From the NCBI GenBank assembly GCA_024405675.1, contig JAKSOH010000002.1, positions 1-64,000 on the forward strand: a stretch of 64,000 bases of DNA. Reading direction: 5' to 3'. The translations under genes were made by a program, and so were the position numbers. The first letter of the stretch is position 1; every line of letters starts with the position of its first letter. The notes under the pieces are model-generated. The model did no database searches, was not told the origin of the DNA, and saw only the letters and a program-made list of their open reading frames with translations. The DNA is from Victivallaceae bacterium. GTDB taxonomy: Bacteria > Verrucomicrobiota > Lentisphaeria > Victivallales > Victivallaceae. Of the stretch, positions 1 to 39,231 are shown in pieces.

Positions 1-458
1 TCCGGCATTGCGGTCCTGGCGAAATTGAAGAGATCCGCCCCACTTGCGAACGGGACGGCCGCCACGGCCATCTTCATCGATCCGTCGGCGGAATCCAGAA
101 CCACGATGTTGTCGTTTGGATTGTCCGTCACCTTGCCGAACACCTTGACTTTTATGAGGTCCAGGGGCATGTGCGCCTCCATCAGGACCGACGGCGAATC
201 ATGGTTCCCCGCGGTAATGACGACCTGGGCGCACGCCCCCGAGCGGTTCACCTCCCCCAGGAAGTTGTAGTATATTGACTGCACTCCGGAACCCGGCTGT
301 CTCGTGTCGAAAACGTCCCCGGACACAATCAGCGCGTCCGGGCGTTCCTTTTCGATGATGCCGAGCAGTTCGTCGAGGAAACGCTGGCCGTCGCCGCTCC
401 TGTCCTGGTCCAGCAGCCTGGCGCCGAGATGCCAATCCGATGTGTGTATTATTTTCAT
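1..458 (-). CDS. sbcD: Exonuclease subunit SbcD, N-terminal part (runs off window)
   Basis: This is the Mre11-like nuclease subunit of the SbcCD complex, which opens hairpins and processes double-strand breaks with the SbcC ATPase. The protein begins MKIIHTSDWHLGARL, followed by SGDVFDTRQP and ITAGNHDS; these are the metal-binding motifs of the calcineurin-like phosphoesterase fold (D8, H10, then GDVFD and GNHD). The start is fixed by an AAAGGAG site about 8 bases upstream of the ATG. Only about 152 codons are present; the C-terminus and any sbcC partner lie outside the window. A short phosphoesterase of another kind is possible, but the N-terminal motif is typical of SbcD. Confidence 0.85.
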   Translation of the reverse strand, partial: MKIIHTSDWHLGARLLDQDRSGDGQRFLDELLGIIEKERPDALIVSGDVFDTRQPGSGVQSIYYNFLGEVNRSGACAQVVITAGNHDSPSVLMEAHMPLDLIKVKVFGKVTDNPNDNIVVLDSADGSMKMAVAAVPFASGADLFNFARTAMP

Positions 459-608
459 GATCCGCTCCTTTCCCTGATGATGTCCGACTTTGTAACTTCC
501 GCCCGTTTTCACTACTAAGATAGTATTTCAAAACGTCAAATCATGTCGTTTTGGTTTTTCAACTAAAAAAGTCCGTGAATTTTCGAATTTTCCGCCGAAG
601 TCGGGCGA

Positions 609-637
609 TTGATTCAACCGCCATGCAAATGTATGGT
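609..637 (+). promoter_or_regulatory. Possible sigma70 promoter for the DUF362 gene
   Basis: TTGATT at 609-614 and TATGGT at 632-637 are separated by 17 bases, in the AT-richer gap between two divergent genes. Each hexamer matches the consensus at 4 of 6 positions. The start of transcription would fall only some 13 bases before the first ATG. The rest of the gap (459-608) shows no gene. Confidence 0.3.
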
Positions 638-656
638 AGCGATGTCAGGGACATAG

Positions 657-1811
657 ATGGAGCATTGGATTATGACTGATTCGAAATTGCACAAGGTGTT
701 TTTCGCGAAATGCCGGAGCTACGCCGACGCCGAACTGGATGCGGCGGTATCCGAAATACTCGCGGATTTCGATTTCTCCGGCAAGAAGGTGATGATAAAG
801 CCCAACTGGCTGTCATACAGATTCGACGGAGACCCGTCGAGCGTCAACCCCAGGCTGCTATGCGCAATTGCAAGGTATGCGCGCGCGCACGGCGCGTCGC
901 GGATATCGGTCAGGGAAAATCCCGGAACGCAGCAGATCGACACGATATGCAATGCGATGGGAATATCGAACGAACTGGATGAACTCGGCGTGGACGTGGC
1001 GCCGTTCCGCCGTTACGAGGTGCGGGAATCGGCCACCGACAGCAATTTCCGGCGCATCGAACTCGCCTCGGAACACCGGGACTACGACGTGGTGCTGAAT
1101 CTCGCCAGGGCGAAGACGCACTGCATGATGACGATCACGCTGGCGGTGAAGAACCTCTTCGGGATGGTGCGTAGCGTAGAGCGCATAGCCTGGCACATGG
1201 CCATCGGACGCGACTACCGGCGTTTCGCCGACATGCTGCTGGACATCTATCTTTCCGTAAGGCCGCAAATAAACATCGTGGACGCGGTGGTGTGCATGGA
1301 AGGCAACGGCCCGGGAAACGGAACCCAGAAGGAAGGCGGTTTTATCGTCGCCGGTGACGATGCGCTGGCGGTGGACTCGGTGCTGTGCGACCGGATATTC
1401 CGGATCCCGGAGGAACTGTCTCCGGTCATGCAGCAGGCCAGGCGGAGGAACCTGGTGCCGCGAACGGAATGCGTCGGCGAACTCCCTGATGCCGTCGATC
1501 TCGAACTGCCGCCGGTAAGCGAGGACGAAACGCCGTTCGACCGGCATCTGCCGCGGTTCGTGCAGGATTTCCTCCGTCGCAGATTGCTAAACTATCCGGT
1601 TATGGACAAGTCGAAATGCCTCGGATGCGGATTATGCGCGCGGATGTGTCCTCCGAAATCACTGAAGATGAAGGATGGACGTCCGAAGTTCGATCTGGAC
1701 ACCTGCATCAGATGCTACTGCTGCCAGGAGCACTGCCCGGCCGGGGCCATAACCGCGAAAAGGCCACTCTTGCTGAAGATCGGAGCGGTCCTTGAGAAGC
1801 TGTTCCACTAG
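657..1811 (+). CDS. DUF362 protein with C-terminal 2x[4Fe-4S] ferredoxin domain
   Basis: A 384-residue protein with an N-terminal DUF362 domain (VMIKPNWLSY, then NLARAKTHCMMTITLAVKN) and a ferredoxin domain near residues 315-365 with two four-cysteine clusters, CLGCGLCARMCP and CIRCYCCQEHCP. DUF362-ferredoxin proteins are common in anaerobes; their reaction is unknown, and a redox role is inferred from the clusters. Two starts are possible: the first ATG at 657 has AGGGA at 647-651, and a second ATG at 672 has GGAG at 659-662. It stands alone, convergent with the next gene and ending 10 bases from it. Confidence 0.85.
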   Translation: MEHWIMTDSKLHKVFFAKCRSYADAELDAAVSEILADFDFSGKKVMIKPNWLSYRFDGDPSSVNPRLLCAIARYARAHGASRISVRENPGTQQIDTICNAMGISNELDELGVDVAPFRRYEVRESATDSNFRRIELASEHRDYDVVLNLARAKTHCMMTITLAVKNLFGMVRSVERIAWHMAIGRDYRRFADMLLDIYLSVRPQINIVDAVVCMEGNGPGNGTQKEGGFIVAGDDALAVDSVLCDRIFRIPEELSPVMQQARRRNLVPRTECVGELPDAVDLELPPVSEDETPFDRHLPRFVQDFLRRRLLNYPVMDKSKCLGCGLCARMCPPKSLKMKDGRPKFDLDTCIRCYCCQEHCPAGAITAKRPLLLKIGAVLEKLFH

Positions 1812-1821
1812 CCGGGGAAAC

Positions 1822-4590
1822 CTACTTTTTCTCCAGCAGGTAGATGCTGTCCCCCTTGACATTGGAAAGCACGTTGCCGACGACGCCCTTGATTTTCCAA
1901 CCTTCGGGCAATTTGACTTCGACCCTGTCGGCCGGATTCCAGAAGAACAGCGCCCCGCCCTTCTCGCCGATCCACGTCGTCCCGAACGAAGTCTCCCTCA
2001 CATACGGCATTCCCGTGTTGTCCAGCGCCGCGTTGAACTTCGGAACGAATCCGGCGTAGCGGCGGCCGCGCTCGACTTCCCCCGGCACCCGGTCGAAGCC
2101 GATTGCGCTGCTGCAGTACTCGAATATCGGGAAGCAGTTGTACATCCCCATGCGGAAGCTGTCCTGGTTGAGACAGCCGGGGACGTCGCCGTAGATGTTC
2201 TGACCGACCATGCTGAACTCGTTGCCGACGAAACTCGTGTACTTGTCGGCGCGGAGCCAGTATTCGTCGATCACAAGGGGGTTCATCCCCTCGATACTGA
2301 CTTTGCATCCCAGGTCCTGGATGTAGCGGTAGAACTTGATCTGGCTCTTCACGCCGTCGGGACTTTCCTTGAGTCCGTAGTTGACCTGCATGGCGGCCGC
2401 GCCGTCCATGTCGCGGTAGAGCTGCGTCACGCCGTTCTTGACCGCATCGGAGACCACCTTCTTATACCACTCGAAGAATCCGGGATTGTTGACGTCGATG
2501 ACGCAGTAGTTCCCGGGATATGTGTGGATGCCGCCCTTCTCGTTCCGGCACATCCATTCCGGATGGTTCCTGACGATCCAGTTGTTCTCGCCCTGCGTAT
2601 AGCTGCCGGCGCTCCAGCAGAGCACGCCGAGTCCCTTGTCGCGTATGTGTTTGTACAGTTCGAGCCGCTTCGGTGAATTGATGGATTCTATCGGACTCTC
2701 GAAAAACGGAGGATAGATGCTGCGGAACCCGGCCTTCGCCGTGGCGTCGATGATGAACTCCTTCTCCGCGGCGGTCATCTGCCAGTTGTAGACGACGGCC
2801 GGATACCCGGTCCATTCCTCGAGTCCCGCCTGGCGGCGCAGGCTCGAACGCACGTACTGGTACATCGCCAGGTAGTCGTTGTGGCCGCGTTCCGGACCGG
2901 TGGAATACCAATGCCAGTAGAACGGCGTGGAGACCGGCGCATGGACCCGGCCGAGGTTGTGGTTGCGCATGTTGAAAATCGGCGTCTTCGCGTCGTTCCG
3001 CTTCAACCGGACGAAAGTGCTCATCGGCTCCGTGACGTTTCCGAGGTAGACTCCGTTCCCGCAGACCAGCATCTCGAACGGCTGGCCGCTGCCGAAGTAC
3101 TTCCAGGTCCAGGTGTCGGACTTGGTCTTCCCCGTCATGTCGAAGTCGCTGTAACCGCGCGGCGGGGAATAGCAGGAGTTGCGGCGGGCGAAAAGCGGTT
3201 TTGGAGGCGTGAGGCATCCCTCGACCTCGATGGCGCTCAAAAGCAGGCCCGACTTGAAAAGTTCGACCCGTTCCGCGATGCCGCGGAACTCGCGGCCGTC
3301 CAGGTTGAACGTTCCGGCCTTGAAGTGCCATTTCATCTCGTTTCCGTCCGAAACATAGGTGATCACGGCCTCGTTTCCGGATGCGGACAGTCCGCGGACG
3401 CTCCACTTTATGTCCGCCTTCTGGCTGAAGTCGCGGTCGCCGGTGTATTCGTTGCTATTGGGATCGATCTCCGGCTGGCGGTTGGAGAATTTCAATATCG
3501 GCACCTTGAGATTGCTGACATACGGTTTGTCCAGCCCGGGCACGAAGAGATCGACCGATCCCGTCTTCCGATCCAGACGCATCCGGCATCCGTTGCCGAA
3601 TTCGACGACGTCGCCCGAGATCCCGGACACCGCGGCATCGGTGACGGAAAACTCCGGCGGAAACACTTCGACCGTCGCCTCCTTTACCGGAACGCGTTCG
3701 GGCACCGGCTCCAGGGCGAGGAGATTGGCGCCCGTCCTGACTGCCGGAGAATCGTAGCAGTCGCCGCAGACCGCGGCGATGAACGCCTTGGAATACGCCC
3801 AGTTGGAGAAGCACTTGATGCGGTTCGCCGGAACCACGTCGATGTTCCAGTAGGTCACGCTGCCCTTTCCGATTCTCCTGCTGACGATGTACGGCGCCAG
3901 ACGCGTCTTCGACACGCATATCCAGCTCTTGATCTTCGCATCGGCGACCGGACTGCAGATGCGGAACTTCTCGTATACGGGCAGCGACTTGGGAAAATCC
4001 GAAAAAAGCCTGCCTTCCGGCCTGGTCGCGAAATAATCGTCGTCGGGATTTTCCGGCTCCTCGTCCTCGAACGTCACCGGCAGCAGGGCGTCGAGCCTGG
4101 TTCCGGCCGGAACGCAAGCGGTAAAAAGCAGGTTGCCTCCTGATTCGACGTATGTCCTAAGCTGTTCGACCGCGCCCGGCGCGTTGAACACACTGGCGAG
4201 ACCGTCCGACTTGATGTTGTTGAAGAGCACAAGGTCCGCCACTCCGGGCCCCTTCTTCGCCATCGTGGCGAAGGCCGGGGTGAATCCGTCGTACGGCTTG
4301 GGCTCCTTCGCGTCGGACATGTGCTGCTTGATCGAGGCGCCGCTGAATCCGGCCAGGTATTCGCCGGAGAAAATCGCGACCTGGATGCCGTTGTTGGACA
4401 GCGGCCACGCCATGTCGCGCGCCGCCCACGGACGGTCCCCGTTGAAAACCATGACCTTGTCCCGGACTTTTCCATTGCCGAACTTCGGCATCTTCTTCTT
4501 CAATCCGCCGATGCCCGGCGCCGCGGACACATCGATGGCCAGGAGCATCGCTCCGGCCAGACAGGACAACAGGAAACTTCGGCATGTCAT
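1822..4590 (-). CDS. Secreted TIM-barrel glycosidase-like protein
   Basis: About 922 residues. The start is the ATG behind GGAGGAACG, giving a signal peptide (MTCRSFLLSCLAGAMLLAI, cut near VSAAPG); the longer open frame upstream has no ribosome site. Residues about 35-230 look like a class I amidotransferase-like flavodoxin fold of the sort found in multidomain glycosidases (ADLVLFNN, YVESGGNLLFTA). A beta-rich middle follows, then from about residue 590 a TIM-barrel resembling alpha-galactosidase-type families: WTGYPAVVYNW, GVLCWSAGSY, and YRDMDG near residue 722 as a candidate acid-base region. Exact family and substrate are not determinable by eye. It lies divergent from a sodium:solute symporter, which suggests carbohydrate breakdown and uptake. 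Confidence 0.7.
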   Translation of the reverse strand: MTCRSFLLSCLAGAMLLAIDVSAAPGIGGLKKKMPKFGNGKVRDKVMVFNGDRPWAARDMAWPLSNNGIQVAIFSGEYLAGFSGASIKQHMSDAKEPKPYDGFTPAFATMAKKGPGVADLVLFNNIKSDGLASVFNAPGAVEQLRTYVESGGNLLFTACVPAGTRLDALLPVTFEDEEPENPDDDYFATRPEGRLFSDFPKSLPVYEKFRICSPVADAKIKSWICVSKTRLAPYIVSRRIGKGSVTYWNIDVVPANRIKCFSNWAYSKAFIAAVCGDCYDSPAVRTGANLLALEPVPERVPVKEATVEVFPPEFSVTDAAVSGISGDVVEFGNGCRMRLDRKTGSVDLFVPGLDKPYVSNLKVPILKFSNRQPEIDPNSNEYTGDRDFSQKADIKWSVRGLSASGNEAVITYVSDGNEMKWHFKAGTFNLDGREFRGIAERVELFKSGLLLSAIEVEGCLTPPKPLFARRNSCYSPPRGYSDFDMTGKTKSDTWTWKYFGSGQPFEMLVCGNGVYLGNVTEPMSTFVRLKRNDAKTPIFNMRNHNLGRVHAPVSTPFYWHWYSTGPERGHNDYLAMYQYVRSSLRRQAGLEEWTGYPAVVYNWQMTAAEKEFIIDATAKAGFRSIYPPFFESPIESINSPKRLELYKHIRDKGLGVLCWSAGSYTQGENNWIVRNHPEWMCRNEKGGIHTYPGNYCVIDVNNPGFFEWYKKVVSDAVKNGVTQLYRDMDGAAAMQVNYGLKESPDGVKSQIKFYRYIQDLGCKVSIEGMNPLVIDEYWLRADKYTSFVGNEFSMVGQNIYGDVPGCLNQDSFRMGMYNCFPIFEYCSSAIGFDRVPGEVERGRRYAGFVPKFNAALDNTGMPYVRETSFGTTWIGEKGGALFFWNPADRVEVKLPEGWKIKGVVGNVLSNVKGDSIYLLEKK

Positions 4591-7407: not shown

Positions 7408-7435
7408 GCCGCCGGCCCGGTCCGGCGGCTTTTTT
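7408..7435 (+). terminator. Rho-independent terminator after the symporter operon
   Basis: GCCGCCGG at 7408-7415 pairs with CCGGCGGC at 7422-7429 around a six-base loop, followed by a run of T at 7430-7435. No T-run follows on the other strand, so it terminates the plus-strand transcript; the convergent aroA gene ends inside it. Confidence 0.85.
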
Positions 7436-8582
7436 ATTTTCGGAGCATGTCGAGTCCGGAGAAGTCGTTGAAAAACCCCGGATACGACTTGGCCGCGCAA
7501 CCGGCGTCGTCGATTACGACCGGCGCGTCGGCGGCAGTGGCGGCGACCGCCGCGGCCATGGCCACCCGGTGGTCCCCGAAGCTGCGGACGACATCCATGA
7601 CATGGTAGCCCCCGGCGCCGCGGACCTCGAGCGATGTCGGAGTTTCCACGCAAGCAGTCCCAAGCGAACGCAGCAAGGCGGCCATCGCCGCGATGCGGTC
7701 CGACTCCTTGAGACGCAACCGTCCGGCGTTGACGAACCTGGTGGTTCCGCGGAACGCCCCCGCCACCGCCACCAGGACGGGGAAGAGATCCGGACTTTGG
7801 GAGATGTCGATCTCCCCTCCGATCCTTCCCCGCAGCAGTTCCACCGCGCGATCCGGCTGCGCCGAACCGGCGTCCAGCCCGTCGACTTCCACTTCCGAAC
7901 CGAGGGCGTTCATGCCGAACCAGAAGGCGGCGCACGACCAGCATCCCTCCGGACGGCAATCGCACTTCGCGTATTTCTGATTTCCCGGGACATGATATCC
8001 GCAGGGCGAGGTCTCGACGAGTATGCCGGCTTTCGAAACCACCTGCATGGTGAGATCCACGTAGCCGCGCGACTCCAATGGCGACGATAGCGTGATGTCG
8101 CTGTCGCCGTCCAGCAGTGGCAACGCGAACAGCAATCCCGATATCAGCTGCGACGAGACGTTTCCGGAAGCGGAGTATTCCCCAGGTTCCAGCTTTCCGT
8201 CCAGTTCGAGCCGGTTGTCCTTCCACCCGCAGAATCGGACGCCGTGCGCCGCCAGCAGGTCGAGGAACTGCGTGACCGGACGTTCCGGAAGCCTGCCGCG
8301 TCCCGTGAACACCGTCCTTCCGCCAAGCGCCCCGACCACCGGCATCAGGAAACGCAGCGTGGAACCGCTTTCGCCGCAGTCCAGGCATCCCTTTCCATCG
8401 GCGAGCGCCTCAAGGCATCTCGCGGTCGCGTGGACATCGTCCGATTCCCCGGAATCCACGTTCCGGTATATCGTTCCGCCACCAAGGTAATCCGCGATGA
8501 GCAGCCGGTGGTAATGCGACTTGGATCGGGGAACGGACACCCGGCCGCGGCGCAGTCCGGGGGTTATGGTCACCGGTGTCAA
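7434..8582 (-). CDS. aroA: 3-phosphoshikimate 1-carboxyvinyltransferase (EPSP synthase)
   Basis: Catalyses transfer of enolpyruvyl from PEP to shikimate-3-phosphate, sixth step of the shikimate pathway. Motifs in order: SVPRSKSHYHRLLIA (catalytic Lys), GESGSTLRFL, GRLPERPV, GNVSSQLISGLL, LRLKESDR and FGDHRVAM. The 382-residue form is shorter than the usual 420-450. The preferred start is a TTG at 8582 that overlaps the aroB stop and has GAGG seven bases upstream; a GTG at 8573 is the alternative, and the longer open frame upstream is only aroB read out of frame. It is the last gene of the four-ORF aromatic operon. Confidence 0.9.
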   Translation of the reverse strand: MTPVTITPGLRRGRVSVPRSKSHYHRLLIADYLGGGTIYRNVDSGESDDVHATARCLEALADGKGCLDCGESGSTLRFLMPVVGALGGRTVFTGRGRLPERPVTQFLDLLAAHGVRFCGWKDNRLELDGKLEPGEYSASGNVSSQLISGLLFALPLLDGDSDITLSSPLESRGYVDLTMQVVSKAGILVETSPCGYHVPGNQKYAKCDCRPEGCWSCAAFWFGMNALGSEVEVDGLDAGSAQPDRAVELLRGRIGGEIDISQSPDLFPVLVAVAGAFRGTTRFVNAGRLRLKESDRIAAMAALLRSLGTACVETPTSLEVRGAGGYHVMDVVRSFGDHRVAMAAAVAATAADAPVVIDDAGCAAKSYPGFFNDFSGLDMLRK

Positions 8583-9946
8583 AGATCCACCTCGACCGTA
8601 CGGACGTCGCCGAATCCGCACGGCAACGCGAATACGACGCGTCCGCCGCGGCGTTTCTTGTCGCCGCGCATCACCGGAACCATGTCGTCCCACCCGATGC
8701 CGTCCGGCAGGGAAGTGCCGAGTCCGGACCGTGAAAACATTTCCGCAAGTTCATTCGGCCATGACTCCGGCGCGAGATCCAGCCGTACGGCAAGCCGCGC
8801 CTCCTCGACGCAGCCGATCGCCACCGCCTCGCCGTGGGAAACCGCGTAACCGGTCAATTTCTCCACGGCATGTCCGGCCGTGTGTCCGCAGTTGAGCAGC
8901 ATGCGCAATCCGTTCCGTTCATACGGATCCTTCGACACGATGTCCGTCTTCACACGGAGATTGGCCAGGAGTTCGGATGCCGTCGGCAGACCGCCGGAAG
9001 CGGGGAGGTCCGCCTTGGAAATCACGCAGTGCTTGATCATCTCGGCCATTCCCGAGCGCAATTCGCGGCCGGGAAGCGTCGCCAGGAAATCCGTGTCCAT
9101 CACCACCAGGACGGGGGAATGGAATGCCCCCGCCAGGTTCTTGCCCTCTTCGAGATCGCATCCGGTCTTGCCGCCGGTCGAGGCGTCGACCATCGCGAGC
9201 AGCGTGGTCGGAATGTTCACCCAGTCGATGCCGCGCATCCAGGTCGCGGCGGCGAATCCGACCAGGTCGCCGGTCACGCCGCCGCCGCAGGACGCCACCC
9301 GGTCGAGCCTGCCGATGCCGGCGCGGGCGAACGCGTGCCACATGGACTCAACCGCCTGTATGTTCTTGTTGCGTTCGCCGGGAACCAGTTCCATCAGCAT
9401 GGAAGCGGAGATATCCGGATATGCCGCCGCCACGTTGCCGTCGAAGACGGTGCGTCCGGGAATCGTGAAAAGTCCGGCGATCCCGCTTCCCGCCACGACC
9501 AGCGAATCCCCGAGATCGATGGAACCCGAGACGCGGTGTTCGAACGACGCATAGTGGGCGGCCCGTTCGCGCGAACGGTCGCCGAGCGGACGGCCGCCGG
9601 GATTGAGTTCGAGCCGCCGCTTCAGTTCCGCGGCATCGGGGGAGTCCAGGCAGATCACGGCGCCGTTGTCTTCGCAAAAGGCGCGGTTCGACCCGTCGAG
9701 CAACGTCCCGCCGCCAAGGGCCACCACGTCGGCCGATCCGGCCGCCTTGCGCAGCGCCTCGCTTTCCCTCTTACGAAAATCCGGCTCGCCGAATTTTGCG
9801 AAGATATCGGGAATCGTCATTCCGGACGAACGTTCCACCAAGGCGTCGGTGTCCTCGAAGCTGGCGCCGATGGCCGCCGCCAGGCGCCGTCCGAGCGTGG
9901 ACTTGCCGCTTCCTGGCGGTCCGTAGAGAAAGATCGTCCCCTTCAC
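8579..9946 (-). CDS. aroKB: Shikimate kinase / 3-dehydroquinate synthase fusion
   Basis: A 455-residue bifunctional protein. Residues 1 to about 145 are shikimate kinase, with the P-loop GPPGSGKST, DTDALVER, ALGGGTLL and the substrate-lid region GRPLGDR. The rest is dehydroquinate synthase: FDGNVAAAYPDI, VASCGGGVTGDLVGFAAA, WVNIPTTLLAMVDAS, GGKTGCDL, GMAEMIKHCV, and the metal ligands in NCGHTAGHAVE and SHGEAVAIG. The synthase part lacks most of the usual N-terminal beta segment. The start is a GTG overlapping the upstream stop (GTGA), with AGGAGG five bases before it. The two steps are not consecutive in the pathway, so the benefit is probably co-expression rather than channelling. Confidence 0.92.
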   Translation of the reverse strand: MKGTIFLYGPPGSGKSTLGRRLAAAIGASFEDTDALVERSSGMTIPDIFAKFGEPDFRKRESEALRKAAGSADVVALGGGTLLDGSNRAFCEDNGAVICLDSPDAAELKRRLELNPGGRPLGDRSRERAAHYASFEHRVSGSIDLGDSLVVAGSGIAGLFTIPGRTVFDGNVAAAYPDISASMLMELVPGERNKNIQAVESMWHAFARAGIGRLDRVASCGGGVTGDLVGFAAATWMRGIDWVNIPTTLLAMVDASTGGKTGCDLEEGKNLAGAFHSPVLVVMDTDFLATLPGRELRSGMAEMIKHCVISKADLPASGGLPTASELLANLRVKTDIVSKDPYERNGLRMLLNCGHTAGHAVEKLTGYAVSHGEAVAIGCVEEARLAVRLDLAPESWPNELAEMFSRSGLGTSLPDGIGWDDMVPVMRGDKKRRGGRVVFALPCGFGDVRTVEVDL

Positions 9947-12900
9947 AACGGCCTCCTTTCGTTTTCGGCATAGATGCGGCGCTGTTCCTCGGCCTGCGCC
10001 ACGAGCATCGGCATGCCGTTGCAAACCGGACATCCGGCCGCGGCGGCCCGGCGCATGACCGGCGTAACTTCAGGGACATACACGAGGTCGAACAAATGCT
10101 CCGTCCCGGTGAACCTGTGGAACGGAATCGGGTCGTCGGCCGGATCGTCGGAACCCAGGCCGACCGAAGTGGCCTGCACGATGACATCGGAATATTCGGA
10201 AAACTCCCGGTCCGATTGGGGTCCGAGCACCGCGTGGGAGAATCCGTATTTCCCTGCCAACGCGGCCGCCTTCTCCGGCGATCTCCCGAAGACGCGGACG
10301 TCCGCGCCGGCGACGGAAAGGGCATACGCCACCGCCCTGGCGGCGCCGCCGGTTCCGACCAGGGCGACGTGGCGGCCCCGGATGTCCTCGGATTGCAGGA
10401 AATCGAGCAATGCCACGATGAATCCGCGGGCGTCGGTATTGTATCCGCGCCAGCCGCCGGGCGTCCGGACCACGGTGTTGACCGCGCCGATGGCGGCGGC
10501 CGTTTCGTCAAGCGATGACAACAATGGAATGATCCGCTCCTTGTGCGGAACGGTGACCGCCATGCCGAGGACGTCCAGCGATTCCGCGCAGGACAGCGAT
10601 TCCTCCGGCGTCTCGGCGGGAATCGGAACCATCACGGCATCGAGGGCCGCGGCCTGGAACGCCGAATTGTTGAGTTCCGGACTCGACGTATGCTCCAGCG
10701 GCCAGCCGGTCACGGCATATATTCTCGTCGAAGCGGTGAGCGTCCTGAAACCATACGTCGACACCAGTTCGTCCGGCGTGACGTGGCCGAGGCCGGCCAT
10801 GCGCGGCATCGCGCCTTCGGGCGAAACGAAAGTCAGCATCGATCCGGTCCGGCACGCCAGTATGCGCGACGCCTTGCCGGCGAGCCCCATCGCGCAGATA
10901 ATGGGGGGGGAGCTGGGAAATCCCGGGGTCTCGGTGAACAAGTGCGCGAGATCTCCGGCGCCGCGGCAGGCGAAGGCGATCTTCGGAATGTCATGCGACG
11001 CGCCGCGGAGTTTCGCGCAAACGGAAACCGCATCGCCCACCGGGCCGGAGAAGTCATGCAGACTGCGTATCACCGCGATTCCGCGACTGTAGGTCAGACG
11101 TTCGAGTTCCGGGACATGGAAATCGCTTTCGAAGTCGACGAACGCGAACCGCCCAGAGGACAGGAGGCATTTGAAGAGTTCCGTCCGGGATTCCTCGCTT
11201 TCCTCCCATCGTCCGCCGTCGGACTTCCGCCTTATCGTGAGAATCGTCCTGAGACCGACGCGTCCGGGGAAATCCGCGGCGAAGCGGCGTTCATTTCCAT
11301 CCAGGCAGTCGACGCGCAGCTCGACCATGTCGATATGCTCGCGGCATTTCGCGACGCAGTCGAAATCGGCGGCCAGCGTGCTTTCGGAAAGCACCAGGCA
11401 TATCCTTGGCACGGCCGATTCGGTCCGCATGATGGCGTCGGAAATCACGTACGCCGCGACCGCCTCGGCGGCCGGGGCGGCCCGGAAGGCGACGCACGGG
11501 TCGTGGCGGCCCTTCGTCCTGCTCTCGGCCGGAACGCGTTTTGCCAGATCGACGCTGCGCTGCGTCTTGAAGACCGACGGCGTCGGCTTGACCGCAAGCC
11601 TTATGACCAGCGGCATCCCTGTCGACATTCCGCCGAGTATCCCGCCATGCCGGTTGGTCGCGGTGACCACCCTTCCGTCGCGGATTTCGAAGGCGTCGTT
11701 GTTCTCCGAGCCGCGCAGGGCCGCGGCGGCGAACCCGTTGCCGAACTCCACGCCTTTGACCGCGGGTATGCCGAAGAGCCCCTCGGAAAGATCCGACTCG
11801 AGCCCGCCGAACATCGCACCGCCGAGTCCGGGCGGGAGATTGTCGATCGTCAGCTCGATTATCCCTCCGACGGAATCCCCGTCGGCCCGGGCCGCGGCGA
11901 CGGTTTCGGCGAATCCGTCCTTCCTGCCGCCGATCTCCACGATTTTGGACGCCACCTTTATTCCGCGGTCCGCCAGCCACTGCAGGCAGATCCCGCCGGC
12001 GATGCACATCGGGGCGGTCATGCGGCCGGAGTTGGATCCGCCGCCGCTGGGTATCTTCCCGAACTTGACCCATTGGGTGAAATCGGCGTGCCCCGGACGC
12101 GGGACGTTTCCGCGGCCGGCATAGTCCTTCTTCCTCACATCCGTGTTGCGTATCAGCGCCTCGATGCGTTCGCCGGTGGTGAAGCCGTCGGAGTCGATGC
12201 CCGACACGAACTCCGGAATGTCCGGCTCGCGGCGCGCGGTCGACATGGCGTCGCGCCCGGGGGCGCGGCGTTCCATGAAACGTCCGAGTTCCGCGAGGTC
12301 CACATGGAACCCGCCTGGGAAATTGTCCATGCGCATTCCGATTCCGGGAGCGTGCGACGCGCCGTAGACGGTCAGCCGGAGCCGGTCGCCGATGGTGCTA
12401 GAGGAATCCGGATTCACGATGTTCTTAGTCCTCCGGAATCCGTCCGACGCGCGGGAATCGGCCGCCGCGGCGATGAAACCGCGCATTCCCTCGCGATCGC
12501 CTCTGGAAAGCATGTCGCGGAAATGCGAAATCCTGCAGATGAAGTCGTCGACCGACGCCAGCAGGCTTTCCCTGTTCTCGTTGAAGAGCGACTCCCACAC
12601 CATTGGATTCATCGAGGCGATGCGGGTCATGTCCCCGTAGCTGCCGGCGGCATATCCCGAGACGTCCCCCGCGGACGGATCCTGCACGTAGGCGGCGGCG
12701 ATGGCATGCGGGAGATGGCTGGTGAAGGCGATCATGTGGTCGTGGTGTTCCGGTGTCGTGACCACGACTTTGGAAAATCCCAGCGACCCGAAGAATTTCT
12801 CCAGCATCGGGACCACCCCGTCCGGAACGTTTCCGTCCGGCGTGAGTATCATCGAGCGGCCGTCGAACATGGATGCGTGCGAAAATGCGGATCCGGAACG

Positions 12901-13221
12901 TTCGGAACCGGCCATGGGATGTCCGCCGACATAAGTCCATCCGGTCTTCGCGATGGCGGAAATCCGGCGGCACAGCTCGGTCTTCACCCCGCAGGTGTCG
13001 ACGACCACCGCCCCCCGCTTGAATTCGGCGGCATGCGCCTCGAACCAGTCCGCCACGACATCGGGCGGCAGGGCCACCAGCACCAGGTCGGACGCCGACA
13101 GGTCGAGCCGGTCGCCGACGTCGAACCCGCCGGTCTCGTATCCGGCGCGTCGCGACGCGCCGTACAGCGAGCCGCCGATCAGGCCCATGCCGACGACGGA
13201 GACGATGCGCGGCAGATCCAT
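9943..13221 (-). CDS. tyrA-aroC-aroDE: TyrA-AroC-AroD-AroE four-enzyme fusion
   Basis: A single uninterrupted frame of 1,092 codons. Residues 1 to about 268: prephenate/arogenate dehydrogenase (VVGMGLIGGSLYG, GGHPMAGSERSG, TSHLPHAIAAAY). About 269-597: chorismate synthase (GASHAPGIGM, RRAPGRDAMSTARREPD, RPGHADFT, AFRAAPAAEAVAAY). About 598-820: type I dehydroquinase (ELRVDC, SLHDFSG, PKIAF Schiff-base Lys, MGLAGKASR). About 825-1092: shikimate dehydrogenase (TGWPLEHTSSPELNN, VTVPHKER, GAVNTVV, YNTDARGF, GTGGAARAVAYAL). No stop separates the parts. In-frame GTG 12417 (GGAGG 12 bases upstream) and ATG 11430 could also start separate AroC and AroD chains. The chosen start, ATG 13221, lies two bases past the aroF stop and has a weak ribosome site, suggesting coupling. 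Chorismate synthase motifs are more divergent than the others. Confidence 0.88.
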   Translation of the reverse strand: MDLPRIVSVVGMGLIGGSLYGASRRAGYETGGFDVGDRLDLSASDLVLVALPPDVVADWFEAHAAEFKRGAVVVDTCGVKTELCRRISAIAKTGWTYVGGHPMAGSERSGSAFSHASMFDGRSMILTPDGNVPDGVVPMLEKFFGSLGFSKVVVTTPEHHDHMIAFTSHLPHAIAAAYVQDPSAGDVSGYAAGSYGDMTRIASMNPMVWESLFNENRESLLASVDDFICRISHFRDMLSRGDREGMRGFIAAAADSRASDGFRRTKNIVNPDSSSTIGDRLRLTVYGASHAPGIGMRMDNFPGGFHVDLAELGRFMERRAPGRDAMSTARREPDIPEFVSGIDSDGFTTGERIEALIRNTDVRKKDYAGRGNVPRPGHADFTQWVKFGKIPSGGGSNSGRMTAPMCIAGGICLQWLADRGIKVASKIVEIGGRKDGFAETVAAARADGDSVGGIIELTIDNLPPGLGGAMFGGLESDLSEGLFGIPAVKGVEFGNGFAAAALRGSENNDAFEIRDGRVVTATNRHGGILGGMSTGMPLVIRLAVKPTPSVFKTQRSVDLAKRVPAESRTKGRHDPCVAFRAAPAAEAVAAYVISDAIMRTESAVPRICLVLSESTLAADFDCVAKCREHIDMVELRVDCLDGNERRFAADFPGRVGLRTILTIRRKSDGGRWEESEESRTELFKCLLSSGRFAFVDFESDFHVPELERLTYSRGIAVIRSLHDFSGPVGDAVSVCAKLRGASHDIPKIAFACRGAGDLAHLFTETPGFPSSPPIICAMGLAGKASRILACRTGSMLTFVSPEGAMPRMAGLGHVTPDELVSTYGFRTLTASTRIYAVTGWPLEHTSSPELNNSAFQAAALDAVMVPIPAETPEESLSCAESLDVLGMAVTVPHKERIIPLLSSLDETAAAIGAVNTVVRTPGGWRGYNTDARGFIVALLDFLQSEDIRGRHVALVGTGGAARAVAYALSVAGADVRVFGRSPEKAAALAGKYGFSHAVLGPQSDREFSEYSDVIVQATSVGLGSDDPADDPIPFHRFTGTEHLFDLVYVPEVTPVMRRAAAAGCPVCNGMPMLVAQAEEQRRIYAENERRPL

Positions 13222-13223
13222 GG

Positions 13224-14234
13224 CTACCGGAGAACCGCGCACTTGCGCACGGCGTCGATCCGTTTCATCATGGCGGAGAAGTCCGCCGGGGTCAGGCTCT
13301 GCTTTCCATCGCATCTCGCGTGCTGCGGATCGTTGTGCACCTCGATGATGAGTCCGTCCGCGCCGATCGCCGCGGCCGCCACCGCGGAGTCGGGGACCAG
13401 TTCCGCCGAGCCGGTGGCGTGCGACGGGTCGACGATGACCGGAAGATGGCTGAGCTTGTGGAGGACCGTGACCACCCCGAGGTCGAGCGTGTTGCGCATC
13501 GCCGTCTCGAAGGTGCGGATTCCGCGTTCGCACAATATGACGTTGGGGTTTCCGCTCGACATGATGTATTCGGCGCTCATCAGCAGTTCCTGGAGCGTGG
13601 ACGACATGCCGCGCTTGAGCAGGATCGGCTTCTTGGTATACGAGCCCACCTCGCGGAGCAGGTTGAAGTTCTGCATGTTCCTCGCGCCGATCTGTATGAC
13701 GTCGACGTCGTTGAAAAGCTCGATGTCGCGGAACTCCATGAGTTCGGTCACCACCGGAAGTCCGGTTTCCCTCTTGGCCAGGAGCAGCAGCCGCACACCC
13801 TCGGCGCCGAGTCCCTGGAAGGAATACGGGCTGGTGCGCGGCTTGAACGCCCCGCCGCGGAGCATCGAGGCCCCGGAGGATTTCACCGCCCTGGCGACTT
13901 CGACAATCTGCTCTTCCGTCTCCACGCTGCAGGGGCCGGCGATGACTGAGAAATGGCCCCCGCCGATTCTGGCTCCGGAACAATCGACAATCGTCGGATC
14001 CGGATGGAACTTGCGGTTCGCCGCCTTGTATGGCTCCTGAATGCGCTGCACGCGCTCGACGATTCCGATCGATTCGATTTCCGTGACGTCCAAATGCGAC
14101 ACGTCTCCGATGCAGCCGATGATGGTCTGCCGCTCTCCGACGGACTCGTGCGGACGTATATTCCTCTCGGCCAGCAACGACTTGAGCCGCTCGACTTCCC
14201 GATTCGGCGCATCCTTCCTGATGATGATAATCAT
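13224..14234 (-). CDS. aroF: 3-deoxy-7-phosphoheptulonate synthase (DAHP synthase, type I-beta)
   Basis: Condenses PEP with erythrose-4-phosphate, the first step of the shikimate pathway. The 336-residue protein has an N-terminal ferredoxin-like regulatory domain (residues 1 to about 65, MIIIIRKDAP, VERVQRIQEPYK), as in the Thermotoga-type enzyme, and a catalytic TIM barrel: SVIAGPCSVE, RGGAFKPRTSPYSFQG, GARNMQNFNLL, LLKRGMSST, IVDPSHATG, IIEVHNDP. The ATG has GGAG seven bases upstream. First gene of the operon; the small N-terminal domain suggests feedback control by aromatic amino acids (known for the subfamily, not shown here). Confidence 0.95.
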   Translation of the reverse strand: MIIIIRKDAPNREVERLKSLLAERNIRPHESVGERQTIIGCIGDVSHLDVTEIESIGIVERVQRIQEPYKAANRKFHPDPTIVDCSGARIGGGHFSVIAGPCSVETEEQIVEVARAVKSSGASMLRGGAFKPRTSPYSFQGLGAEGVRLLLLAKRETGLPVVTELMEFRDIELFNDVDVIQIGARNMQNFNLLREVGSYTKKPILLKRGMSSTLQELLMSAEYIMSSGNPNVILCERGIRTFETAMRNTLDLGVVTVLHKLSHLPVIVDPSHATGSAELVPDSAVAAAAIGADGLIIEVHNDPQHARCDGKQSLTPADFSAMMKRIDAVRKCAVLR

Positions 14235-33527: not shown

Positions 33528-34340
33528 ATGTCCGAGGCTTATCTGTTCAACGGGATGGATTCCTACGACACCCCGGCCGACGTCGAGACGACGTTCTGGT
33601 CGCGGCTATTCGGAGGAACCAGGCTGTACTTCTATTCCGGATGCTTCCGGACCTTCGTGCTCGCAGGAAAGGACGCGCAGAAAGGCAAGCTGAGCAAGGA
33701 ACAGCAGATAAGACACTCCAGCGAAAACATCAAGCTCATAGAGCGCATCGGCGGAAAGCTGCATTTGCGCGGTCTGGACAAGTTGCGCGCCAACGCCGGA
33801 AAACCGATGGTAATAGCGGGCAACCACATGAGCTTGCTCGAGACCGCCCTGGTGCACGCCATATTGCGCGAGTACGTGGATTTTTCGTTCGTCATCAAGG
33901 CCTCGTTGCTCAAGACGCCTTATATGAAAGATATTCTCTCCAGTTTCGAATCCATCCCTGTCACTAGACAAAACCCTAGAGAAGATCTGAAAACGGTATT
34001 GGGCAGGGGCAAGGAGATTCTCCGAAGTGGCAGGGCGCTCATCATATTCCCCCAGTCGACTCGCAGCGAGACGTTCGACCCGGAATCCTGCGGCACGCTC
34101 GCCGTCAAGCTGGCGAAGTCCGCAGGCGTTCCCATGATGCCGATGGCGCTAAAAACCGATCTCATTTCCAACGGTCGCGGCAAGCTCAAGGATCTTGGGC
34201 CGATTCATCCGGAGAAAGAGGTCTGGTTTGAATTCGGTGATCCCATGGATATAACCGGCAACGGACGTGAACAGCACCAGGCGTTCTGCGATTTCGTGTC
34301 GACGAGACTTGTCGAATGGCGGCGGATGGAGACCAAATGA
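33528..34340 (+). CDS. plsC: 1-acyl-sn-glycerol-3-phosphate acyltransferase family protein
   Basis: 270 residues with a PlsC domain. The catalytic histidine is in AGNHMSLLETALVH, a variant of the NHxSxxD motif with Glu in the acidic position; the second block is LIIFPQSTRSETFDP (usually FPEGTRS) and the third GVPMMPMAL. It transfers an acyl chain to lysophosphatidate or a related acceptor at the inner membrane. The variant motifs leave open a lipid A or other acceptor. It overlaps lptD by four bases (ATGA), linking it to outer-membrane assembly. Confidence 0.8.
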   Translation: MSEAYLFNGMDSYDTPADVETTFWSRLFGGTRLYFYSGCFRTFVLAGKDAQKGKLSKEQQIRHSSENIKLIERIGGKLHLRGLDKLRANAGKPMVIAGNHMSLLETALVHAILREYVDFSFVIKASLLKTPYMKDILSSFESIPVTRQNPREDLKTVLGRGKEILRSGRALIIFPQSTRSETFDPESCGTLAVKLAKSAGVPMMPMALKTDLISNGRGKLKDLGPIHPEKEVWFEFGDPMDITGNGREQHQAFCDFVSTRLVEWRRMETK

Positions 34341-37033
34341 AGGGCCTGCTCAAAAAGCTGCTGATAGTCGCGACAGTGGTGGCCGCATCCGTAGCAGCGC
34401 AGGCTTTCCCCAGCATGGGATTGGAACAGCTGCGCCGATTCAAGGCGGAACGCTGGACAGTGATCGGTAAGAACATCTTCGTCAAGGGCGGCATCCACCT
34501 TCCGTACGGTGAATACGAATTGTACGCCGACCAGGCGGTAATCAACACGGAAAGCGGCGATCTGGAGGCGGTGGGCAACATCAGGTTCTACCGCTGGCAG
34601 AAGACCACCGCCAAGTTGGATTTGAACAAGCTGGCCGAGCTCGGAGGAAGAAACGACCTCTTGCTCGAAATGGATTCCAGCAGCACCAACGAATGGGGAC
34701 AGAAGATATTCAACGTCAAGGGGCGTTACCTGACCGACACCATATCGGCGCAGCGGGTAGCTGGAAACATCACCACCGGCTACTTCCGGATGGACGACTT
34801 CACGATGCGTTCCAATACCGTCGTCTGCCGCGCCAAGTCGGCGGAACGGCTCCCGAGCGGAAAGATCATACTCAAGGACGGCGAGATAAGCAGCTGCAAC
34901 TACCTGGCCGATGACAACGCCCACTACTCCGTGGCCGGTGCGACCATAACGCTCACGCCGCACAAGAGCGACCTGCCTGGAGTCAGCGGAATCGACGACG
35001 AACGTGGCGACTACGCGGTGTTCATGGCCAACGGCTGCGTGAAGATTTACGGCGTGCCGCTGCTGTGGCTACCGCTGTTCTACAAACCGCGCGACGAGAA
35101 CCCGGGACTCGTAAGCGTGATGGTAGGGAAACGCAACAGCTGGGAGTATTTCGTGTCGCTGTCGCGTCTCTTCAAGTTCGAAGGATACCCCGGCGTACGG
35201 TTGAAGCTCAGGGGCGATTACTACAACATGAGAGGTTTCGGATACGGCGGCCATGGTAGCATCGCCTTGGAAAACAGCCGGACGGACTTCTTCGCTTACG
35301 CGATATCGGACATGAGACCCAATCTGGGAATCGACTATCGGCAATACCGGTTCCGCATTCCGCATGACCGCTACGATTTCAGAATCAGCAACATCACCCA
35401 CCTGACGCCGCGGCTAGACTTCCGCGCGGCATTCGAGTACGCCAGCGATCCCTATGTCACCCATGACTTCTTCAACTACCGCTATTCGAACAACCGCGAG
35501 CCGGCGACGTTCATAGCGCTCGAACAGCAGTTCGACCACTTCAGCGCATCGATTTACTACCGGCCGCGCGTCAACAACTTCTACAATACGGTCGAGAAGG
35601 TTCCGGAGGTCAGGCTGGACATCCACCGGCAGGAGCTCTTCCACACCAACATCTACTATCAGGGCACAACCACGGCCGCCTACAACCAGATGCGCTGGCT
35701 CAAATTCGACCTGACGCACAAGGAGTACTACCATCGCAAGCACAAGCCATACGACCCGATACTCGACTCGAAGGATCTCGAACTGAGCAACTACCAGGCC
35801 TTCAAGATGGACACCACGCATTTCCTGTATTATCCGATACGCACCAAGTGGTTCACCTTGACGCCGAGGGCTGGACTCAAGTTTCTCGTCTACAGCCATA
35901 GCAGCAAGAACGACGTCAGCAACTCGGACGTAAACGCGATATTGGCGGCGTCGCAATACACGAACACCGAACCGATACTGCTGAACCAGTATGACAACCA
36001 GGGCGGAGCGCAGCTCAGGCTGATCGGAGAACTCGGATTCGAACTCTCGACCAAGATACACAACACCTGGCAGGGAGTGCGCAACAAGTTCATGGGAATC
36101 GACGGTCTGAGACACATAATCAAACCGTACATCAACTACACGTATCTGGACGTGCTTACCGGCTGCGGCATCGACAATTTATACTACTTCGACGACGTCG
36201 ACCGCATCGAACGACAGCACTTCATTCGGTTCGGCTTGGAGAACCGCCTGCAGACCAGGGACGGCGGCAGCATCCGCGAGATACTGAGCATGGAGAACTT
36301 CATCGACGTGCACTTCGAACGAGGTCCCGGTGTACAGGCCGGCAAGGGAACGGACGGATATCTCATAGACATCGACCGGATGTCCAGGCTCGGCGACTTC
36401 TGCACATTGCTCACGGTGAGACCGCTGAAGAACCTTTCTATCTCAACGGCGTTCTCCATCAACTTCACCAACCAGAACGGTTCGGTTCCGGACACAATAC
36501 GCAACGGACGCAACGTCGGCAAGAAGGGTCTGCAGGCGTCATGGCTAAACAAGTGGTCTATTTCGATTGCCTACGAGCCAATTGACGACGTAAAGATAAA
36601 CTTCGCCTACACCTATCACCGTCCGTATGCCGCACGTACCGCATATTCAATGGGGTCGACGCTTACGAACCTCGAAGCCGGCAGCTTCTTCAACAAGGTG
36701 TACACCGATTACACAGAGACGTTGTCTTTCAGCGTCAACACATTCCTGACGCCCGACCGCCGCACCTTCGGATCGGTGGGAATGACCTATGACATCCAGA
36801 AGGGAAACATCGACGACATCACGATCGCGGTGACGCGGCAGTTCCACTGTCTGGAAGTGGCGGCGATGCTCGAGTTCTCAAGAGAAAACGACCGGGACGG
36901 CGCATACTGGGACACCTCGTTCTCCATACAAGCGCAGCTCCTCGGACTCGAGAACCCGTTTGGAAGGCAATACAACGACATGCTGGACTATGCCAACGAG
37001 ACGCTCAGGGCGCCCAACCACAGGCTATTCTAG
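34337..37033 (+). CDS. lptD: LPS assembly outer-membrane protein LptD-like
   Basis: 898 residues with a signal peptide (MKGLLKKLLIVATVVAASVA, then AQAF). The N-terminal part is an OstA-like beta-jellyroll (ELYADQAVINTESGDLEAVG), followed by the typical LptD segments ISSCNYLADDNAHYSV and VKIYGVPLLWLPLFYKP. The remaining 600 residues are rich in Tyr, Arg and Asp in alternating strands, as expected for a large beta-barrel that inserts LPS into the outer leaflet. Its presence argues for a true LPS-bearing outer membrane. The gene overlaps plsC by four bases and is followed after 21 bases by hldD. Confidence 0.88.
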   Translation: MKGLLKKLLIVATVVAASVAAQAFPSMGLEQLRRFKAERWTVIGKNIFVKGGIHLPYGEYELYADQAVINTESGDLEAVGNIRFYRWQKTTAKLDLNKLAELGGRNDLLLEMDSSSTNEWGQKIFNVKGRYLTDTISAQRVAGNITTGYFRMDDFTMRSNTVVCRAKSAERLPSGKIILKDGEISSCNYLADDNAHYSVAGATITLTPHKSDLPGVSGIDDERGDYAVFMANGCVKIYGVPLLWLPLFYKPRDENPGLVSVMVGKRNSWEYFVSLSRLFKFEGYPGVRLKLRGDYYNMRGFGYGGHGSIALENSRTDFFAYAISDMRPNLGIDYRQYRFRIPHDRYDFRISNITHLTPRLDFRAAFEYASDPYVTHDFFNYRYSNNREPATFIALEQQFDHFSASIYYRPRVNNFYNTVEKVPEVRLDIHRQELFHTNIYYQGTTTAAYNQMRWLKFDLTHKEYYHRKHKPYDPILDSKDLELSNYQAFKMDTTHFLYYPIRTKWFTLTPRAGLKFLVYSHSSKNDVSNSDVNAILAASQYTNTEPILLNQYDNQGGAQLRLIGELGFELSTKIHNTWQGVRNKFMGIDGLRHIIKPYINYTYLDVLTGCGIDNLYYFDDVDRIERQHFIRFGLENRLQTRDGGSIREILSMENFIDVHFERGPGVQAGKGTDGYLIDIDRMSRLGDFCTLLTVRPLKNLSISTAFSINFTNQNGSVPDTIRNGRNVGKKGLQASWLNKWSISIAYEPIDDVKINFAYTYHRPYAARTAYSMGSTLTNLEAGSFFNKVYTDYTETLSFSVNTFLTPDRRTFGSVGMTYDIQKGNIDDITIAVTRQFHCLEVAAMLEFSRENDRDGAYWDTSFSIQAQLLGLENPFGRQYNDMLDYANETLRAPNHRLF

Positions 37034-38029: not shown

Positions 38030-39231
38030 TGTCCCGCGGCTCGATTTCCGGACTCAGCCTGGAATCCGCGGTACGCGGAGCGCTGGAAGTGGAGTCGAGA
38101 CGTTGCACGCTCGACGAATACCTTGATGGCGTCGACGAATCGTACCGGCGCATTGTCACGCACTTGCTGCTTTCGTATTTCAGAAGAAAGAAACTTGTAG
38201 ATGCAACAATCGCGGACTTGCTGACAAAACGCACGCCACCTGAGGTCGTGGCATTGTTGCGCATCGCGCTCGCCAGGGTATTGTTCCAGGACAAAATCGC
38301 ACCGGAATCTTCGGTCAACATCGCCGTGGAGGTTGCGAAGAAACAACATTGCGACCGGCTGGTCAACGCAGTGCTGCGAAACGCCATGCGACGGGATCTC
38401 GCAGTTTCCGACAAGCCGAAGGACGTGTTGCCGGACATGGTGCTCAAATGCTGGAAGAGAAGATTCGACGAAAAGACGCTTGCCGATATCTGCGAGTGCT
38501 TCCTTTCCGGGGCCGGACTGACATTCCGATTCGAACACAGCGGCGAGCCTCCGTCCGAACTCGAAGCCACGCCCGTCGATGCATACGGAGGATTCCGATT
38601 CTTCGAAACAAAGAAGGCGGCGAACTGTATCGGCTCGCACGACGTCTATATCCAGGATCCGGCAGCAAGCCTGGCCGTGTCGCTGATTGATTTCGGCGAT
38701 GTCTGTTCCGCGCTTGATCTCTGCGCCGCTCCGGGAGGAAAATCACTGATGATTTCCGAACGGCTGAATCCTTGTGCCACGCTGGTTGCGGCCGACGTCT
38801 CTGACAAACGCCAGAAGCTGACCAGGGAGAACTTCGAAAAACGCCATCTTCCGCACAAGGTGATAACGGCTGAAGCCGGAGAAATCTCCGGTTGTTTTGA
38901 CCTCGTGCTGGCCGATGTGCCATGTAGCAACACCGGAGTGTTCAGAAGGCGTCCGGACGCATTGTGGAGATTCAGCGAAAGATCGCTCGCCGACGTGATG
39001 AAAATCCAGCGCAAGATATTGGATGATGCGTCCAGACTGGTCGCTCCGGGCGGGCAATTGGTATATTCGACTTGTAGCATAGAACCGGATGAAAACACGA
39101 CGATGGTGGAACGATTTCTGGAAACACACCCGGATTTCGAACTCGCCAGACAGGAACTGCTGATTCCTGCTATGGATCACGATGGCGCCGGAGCGGCGCT
39201 CTTGAAAAGGAATGGAGGAAAGCGAAAGTGA
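38029..39231 (+). CDS. rsmB: 16S rRNA (cytosine-C5) methyltransferase, RsmB/NOP type
   Basis: 400 residues. The N-terminal 130 residues form a NusB-like RNA-binding domain (RRIVTHLLLSYFRRKKL, LLRIALARVLF, ESSVNIAVEVAKK, LVNAVLRNAMRR). The methyltransferase domain has ALDLCAAPGGKS for SAM, LADVPCSNTGVFRRRPD and LVYSTCSIEPDEN, the two cysteines being the release and catalytic ones. It methylates C967 of 16S rRNA in E. coli. The ATG overlaps the hldD stop by one base, and the stop overlaps the next gene (GTGA). Confidence 0.92.
   Translation: MSRGSISGLSLESAVRGALEVESRRCTLDEYLDGVDESYRRIVTHLLLSYFRRKKLVDATIADLLTKRTPPEVVALLRIALARVLFQDKIAPESSVNIAVEVAKKQHCDRLVNAVLRNAMRRDLAVSDKPKDVLPDMVLKCWKRRFDEKTLADICECFLSGAGLTFRFEHSGEPPSELEATPVDAYGGFRFFETKKAANCIGSHDVYIQDPAASLAVSLIDFGDVCSALDLCAAPGGKSLMISERLNPCATLVAADVSDKRQKLTRENFEKRHLPHKVITAEAGEISGCFDLVLADVPCSNTGVFRRRPDALWRFSERSLADVMKIQRKILDDASRLVAPGGQLVYSTCSIEPDENTTMVERFLETHPDFELARQELLIPAMDHDGAGAALLKRNGGKRK

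Follow-up and report, generated by a model that had tools for sequence, protein, structure and literature searches.

Does a single gene of a gut-type Victivallaceae bacterium encode prephenate dehydrogenase (TyrA), chorismate synthase (AroC), type I 3-dehydroquinate dehydratase (AroD) and shikimate dehydrogenase (AroE) as one polypeptide, or are these enzymes also made separately? The question is raised by a 64,000-nucleotide stretch of contig JAKSOH010000002.1, hereafter the window. Among multi-enzyme fusions in the shikimate pathway, AROM is the textbook case; the known fusions include AROM, the AroD–AroE proteins of plants and chlamydiae, AroK–AroB and TyrA–AroA. AROM carries neither TyrA nor AroC.

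Translation of the minus strand from 13221 to 9943 gave an uninterrupted frame in which the sole stop codon is terminal. When the 1,092-residue product was compared with Pfam, all matches scored above the curated cut-offs: PDH_N (residues 41-144), PDH_C (156-247), Chorismate_synt (281-598), DHquinase_I (608-821), Shikimate_dh_N (837-917) and Shikimate_DH (945-1019). The AroE domain ends at residue 1019 according to Pfam and at about 1085 according to the NCBIfam models. The coordinates, domain order and length that had been proposed from the DNA sequence were therefore correct. Although the frame is open upstream as far as 14283, ATG 13221 is the sensible start for the fusion, because the Rossmann motif GMGLIGG falls at residues 11-17 and the aroF gene ends 2 bases upstream. 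For each of TyrA, AroC, AroD and AroE, the fusion is the only copy detected in the genome, the assembly of which is 71% complete. The features of the locus, together with loci in other genomes that are discussed below, are listed in the table.

Table. Features of the fusion gene, its operon and related loci (positions refer to the window unless a locus is named)
Feature	Position	Strand	Description	Evidence
TyrA-AroC-AroD-AroE fusion gene	9943..13221	-	1,092 codons plus stop	Translation, Pfam, homolog L121
TyrA (prephenate dehydrogenase) domain	12448..13221	-	Residues 1-258; H101, R200 conserved	
TyrA/AroC linker	12403..12447	-	Residues 259-273; low model confidence	
SD-like GGAGGA	12429..12434	-	11 bases before GTG 12417; absent from L121	
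GTGA relic	12414..12417	-	Ancestral aroC start GTG 12417-12415 over TGA of another frame; in L121 at 1136	
AroC (chorismate synthase) domain	11410..12402	-	Residues 274-604; GGRSSARET-type motif reads GGGSNSGRMT	
AroD (type I 3-dehydroquinate dehydratase) domain	10738..11409	-	Residues 605-828; K747, H722, E634 conserved	
AroE (shikimate dehydrogenase) domain	9946..10737	-	Residues 829-1092; K894, D930 conserved	
AroF/AroG type DAHP synthase	13224..14234	-	B. subtilis-type, ferredoxin-like N-terminal domain; first operon gene	Pfam, NCBIfam
AroK-AroB fusion (shikimate kinase, 3-dehydroquinate synthase)	8579..9946	-		Pfam, NCBIfam
AroA (EPSP synthase)	7434..8582	-	Probable TTG start	Pfam, NCBIfam
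AroB-TyrA-AroK fusions	L038:1102-3657, L039:2335-4872, L040:7951-10479, L041:1516-4158	-, +, -, +	Same-genus genomes	
AroC-AroB / AroK-AroA loci of family f39	L058:6082-7971, L060:6496-8472, L060:8403-9980, L119:2842-4893	-, +, +, +		
Treponema AroD-AroE example	L138:5950-7482		Treponema ruminis RU1	

The four-domain order that the original prediction suggested seeking in related genomes is found in a second assembly. A contig of a goat rumen metagenome-assembled genome, Victivallales RGIG3456 (JAFSTJ010000015.1; genome G546, contig C839; hereafter L121), encodes TyrA–AroC–AroD–AroE at 299-3589 on the plus strand as a single frame of ~1,096 amino acids, 57% identical to the window fusion over its length, and the gene is followed by AroK–AroB and AroA. 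This genome (family f10, g47) belongs to the same class as the window genome, and differs from it in family and order. It was recovered by an alignment search of the genome contigs with the AroD domain; the fused protein, used as a single query against the same contigs, found no relatives. A single frame that holds four complete enzyme domains, and whose architecture recurs in another genome at this level of identity, is beyond chance.

At the TyrA/AroC joint of the window, the GTGA at 12417 is the counterpart of the tyrA/aroC overlap seen in relatives, so two genes could have been joined here by a small indel of natural or artificial origin. If the indel were an error of sequencing or assembly, tyrA and aroC-aroD-aroE would truly be two overlapping genes, as in most relatives examined, where tyrA overlaps aroCDE by ATGA. 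Codon usage is neutral on the alternative frame ending at a TAA beside the SD-like GGAGGA, but disfavours a one-base-extra error for all shift points before the last few codons, and a homopolymer is absent from the joint. What decides the matter is that L121 has the same in-frame join, and that residues of the linker are kept in this frame: SRASDGFRR--TKNIV in L121 aligns with SKAKDGFNHNATKQTV in the window, and the pattern S.A.DGF...TK..V (from residue 256) is common to both. The same indel error would not occur in two independent assemblies at 57% identity. The fusion is therefore no artefact of sequencing, and we consider an erroneous join extremely improbable. A stop or frameshift between the domains, named in the original prediction as evidence that would count against it, does occur in relatives without the TyrA fusion, whereas L121 has none.

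An AlphaFold2 model of the fusion was built on an alignment of the homologs gathered in this analysis. The model has a mean pLDDT of 87.0, and values below 50 are confined to residues 259-273, between TyrA and AroC, and to the last three residues. The C-terminal helix of AroC (578-603) is predicted to run directly into the first strand of AroD (606-611). The joints are thus tight in the model, in agreement with the near-absence of linkers suggested beforehand. In Foldseek comparisons of the model, the AroD–AroE part matched Arabidopsis DHQ-SDH over ~500 columns and was aligned to 6hqv, 7u5s and 7tbv, and the AroC and TyrA parts matched solved chorismate synthases and prephenate dehydrogenases.

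A fused frame could still yield more than one product, and overlapping products from internal starts at GTG 12417 and ATG 11430 had been put forward. Under such a scheme, the cell would make free AroC–AroD–AroE from GTG 12417, and perhaps AroD–AroE from ATG 11430, alongside the full-length protein. In alignments, GTG 12417 coincides with the starts of free-standing aroC genes in relatives, this ancestral position is retained in both four-domain genes, and in the window genome GGAGGA precedes it by 11 bases. That spacing is, however, long compared with the 5 bases that separate AAAGGAGG from the aroK-aroB start, and no SD-like sequence was found upstream of the internal GTG of L121. Neither was one found upstream of ATG 11430, which falls within the last AroC helix of the model. 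Moreover, the fusion frame contains no in-frame stop that could release TyrA. Separate products are possible but find little support and are not favoured; taken together, we regard dual production as improbable, and the proposal of overlapping products as a weak one.

Turning from the frame to its products, the TyrA domain matches both PF02153 (Rossmann) and PF20463 (PDH_C dimerisation) above cut-off, and alignment to 2g5c places the catalytic His and Arg at H101 in GGHPMAG and R200 in MTRIA. The AroC domain is a full-length Chorismate_synt match (model positions 1-327 of 327, E 2.8e-97). The AroD–AroE half (629-1084) aligns lengthwise to 2gpt (E 8e-50), continuously across both domains, with the Schiff-base Lys (K747) and catalytic His (H722) of AroD and the Lys and Asp of AroE (K894, D930) aligned. 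The catalytic residues of these enzyme families correspond to H101 and R200 in TyrA, H290 and H378 in AroC, H722 and K747 in AroD, and K894 and D930 in AroE. The idea that TyrA and AroE might form a closed NADPH cycle was rejected: judged by motif, the second strand of TyrA ends in GFD, with the Asp of the NAD type, and AroE has FGRS, of the NADP type.

The domain that gives most reason for caution is AroC, in which the GGRSSARET motif is altered to GGGSNSGRMT; the activity of this domain is assumed from its being the sole copy found. The change might signal a decaying fusion with one catalytically dead domain, for which there is a precedent in the inactive DHQase domain of C. albicans Aro1 (PMC9074039). 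Against decay, L121 shows a corresponding change (GGGANSGRMT), which argues that the altered motif is conserved; AroC retains H290, H378 and R400, as well as RHDPC; and no second AroC was found in the 71% complete genome. A dead domain therefore seems very unlikely. As the catalytic residues align and the change in AroC is common to L121, every domain is probably enzymatically active.

The fusion gene is the second of four genes on one strand, in the order aroF, TyrA–AroC–AroD–AroE, aroK-aroB and aroA. The GTG start of aroK-aroB overlaps the stop of the fusion as GTGA and has a strong SD, AAAGGAGG, 5 bases off; the probable TTG start of aroA overlaps the aroK-aroB stop as TTGA. The four polypeptides of the operon thus cover TyrA and each of the seven steps to chorismate. 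A separate gene on contig C53 encodes chorismate mutase as a small stand-alone protein. Elsewhere in the window, a 4,627-codon open frame (50019-63902, minus strand) had no Pfam match at 1e-5, and a 905-codon open frame (34316-37033, plus strand) had no match in Pfam at 1e-5 or NCBIfam at 0.001. A further frame of 675 codons (44259-46286, minus strand) has a glycosyltransferase in its C-terminal half and, at residues 16-145, matches PurN (formyltransferase) weakly; it is perhaps another fusion.

Among 198 genomes of the class, the four-domain protein occurs in two, the window genome and L121, both of which are metagenome assemblies. One further genome of the 198, G271, from the family of L121, has the three-domain form, and the gene upstream of it is unrelated. 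Same-genus genomes lack the four-domain fusion, and in the 33 others AroC frames do not exceed 488 codons. In a phylum-wide sample, AroC–AroD–AroE without TyrA turned up mostly in another Verrucomicrobiota family, f39, in which it is common; there the gene order tyrA, aroCDE, aroKB, aroA equals that of the window and tyrA often lies directly upstream of aroCDE in another frame. In phylogenetic trees, the TyrA domains of the window and L121 are sisters (98), and the AroCDE parts of the window, L121 and G271 form a clade (97/97) away from same-genus homologs. Because G271 groups with them, the AroCDE tree shows no clade of the window and L121 alone; such a clade is not rejected (p-AU 0.27), a value compatible with either of two histories, in that TyrA may have been lost in G271 or the TyrA–AroC join may have arisen twice.

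A rival reading is that the contig was misbinned, so that the fusion would belong to a different lineage such as family f39 or f10. Over its full length, the AroC domain reaches no more than ~44% identity with same-genus AroC, but up to 64% with f39 AroC, and the GC content is 62% at 8-16 kb, compared with 53-59% across the rest of the window. However, the contig also encodes MurC (39228-40625), which shares 57-58% identity with MurC of the same-genus genomes G009, G006 and G026 and is far less similar to f39 and f10 MurC; L121 MurC is 39% identical to it, compared with 58% for the best same-genus genomes, while the fusion proteins of the two genomes are 57% identical. The other contigs of the genome are similar in GC and tetranucleotides. 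On the MurC comparison the window contig belongs to the genus, and misbinning is a very improbable explanation. The MurC and composition evidence fits transfer of the operon into this genome instead. Same-genus genomes have a different operon, and the one described here was probably gained by horizontal transfer; on the most economical account, the TyrA–AroC join was already present in the operon before it was transferred.

Other combinations of these enzymes were encountered in the same searches. Four same-genus genomes (G025, G004, G012 and G010) encode AroB–TyrA–AroK in a single frame of ~850 amino acids, as seen with Pfam on two and BLAST on all four. In some f39 genomes, AroC–AroB (~630 amino acids) and AroK–AroA fusions replace AroC–AroD–AroE and AroK–AroB; this is the same operon with its genes divided and fused in another way. 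AroD–AroE proteins of ~500 amino acids are encoded in many Treponema genomes (L127-L200), some of them from isolates, and are 38-43% (AroD) and 41-52% (AroE) identical to the window domains.

How does the protein compare with known systems? The fungal and apicomplexan AROM/Aro1 proteins, AroB–AroA–AroK–AroD–AroE, likewise combine several shikimate enzymes in one polypeptide and end in AroD–AroE in the same order, a type I DHQase (residues 608-821 here) followed by a C-terminal shikimate dehydrogenase (837-1085). In contrast to AROM, the 1,092 residues contain no Pfam domains for DHQ synthase, EPSP synthase or shikimate kinase, which are encoded by the two following genes. As AroB, AroA and AroK are missing from the polypeptide, the fusion lies outside the AROM family while being AROM-like in working; it looks like a convergent, independently built protein that is not homologous to AROM as a whole. 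Arabidopsis DHQ-SDH and the Treponema AroD–AroE proteins align with its C-terminal half, but it differs from these bifunctional proteins in having TyrA and AroC in front, and the NCBIfam model of this type, PRK09310, was matched below cut-off (122 of 598 bits). Close in layout are the f39 AroC–AroD–AroE proteins of Kiritimatiellae metagenome assemblies (for example G264, G356 and G456), with the same domain and operon order and 50-55% identity, in which tyrA is a separate gene rather than fused; no paper describing them was found in the open-access literature searched. TyrA–AroA (PRK14806; 137 of 902 bits) also joins TyrA to a shikimate enzyme, although the partner is AroA there and AroC here. 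The operon neighbour of the fusion belongs to the AroK–AroB type (PRK14021, PRK13951). A PDB sequence search found no solved structure with TyrA and AroC, or AroC and AroD, together, no NCBIfam model joining either pair was among the matches listed, and no description of TyrA–AroC–AroD–AroE was found in the open-access papers searched. The suggestion that the four-domain polypeptide was both genuine and undescribed is thus supported.

We conclude that the gene very probably encodes one tetrafunctional TyrA–AroC–AroD–AroE protein, fused stepwise from a compact aro operon and probably conferring AROM-like benefits in stoichiometry and co-folding. The fused frame, its presence in L121, the complete domains with their catalytic residues and the operon are shown here, and we infer the domain activities, the quaternary structure and the benefit. 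TyrA and AroD generally form dimers, and AroC a tetramer. In a first step, an ancestral operon with overlapping stop and start codons would have fused aroC, aroD and aroE, a stage that persists in many f39 members, with tyrA overlapping in another frame by ATGA. In a second step, the 3' end of tyrA would have undergone a net shift of frame that allowed read-through into aroC. The GTGA relic at the TyrA/AroC joint of both genes suggests that TyrA was joined by loss of an overlapping stop and start, and the next two joints of the operon still carry xTGA overlaps.

The benefit of such a protein would lie in 1:1:1:1 stoichiometry, coupled folding and co-localisation. By analogy with AROM, these are probable rather than direct hand-over of intermediates. 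AroD and AroE catalyse consecutive steps, but chorismate mutase separates AroC from TyrA, and AroK and AroA separate both from AroE, so hand-over within the chain could serve only AroD to AroE. For AROM itself, no increase in throughput was observed in vitro by Veraszto 2020 (cited in PMC9074039), so the benefit of the fusion is uncertain. A broader and more speculative reading, which we think rather unlikely, is that parts of the Verrucomicrobiota condense the entire chorismate pathway into a few multi-enzymes, a physical metabolon carried by a horizontally moving operon and in effect a re-run of AROM. Repeated loss of stop/start overlaps might then have produced TyrA–AroC–AroD–AroE with AroK–AroB, AroC–AroB with AroK–AroA, and AroB–TyrA–AroK.

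The purpose of AROM-type fusions is still poorly understood (PMC9074039). The protein described here adds a combination of TyrA and chorismate synthase domains that is absent among the solved structures and NCBIfam matches found. Furthermore, related bacteria display the stages of fusion together, from separate overlapping genes through AroC–AroD and AroC–AroD–AroE to all four domains, so that a stepwise experimental comparison of the enzymes before and after fusion is possible.
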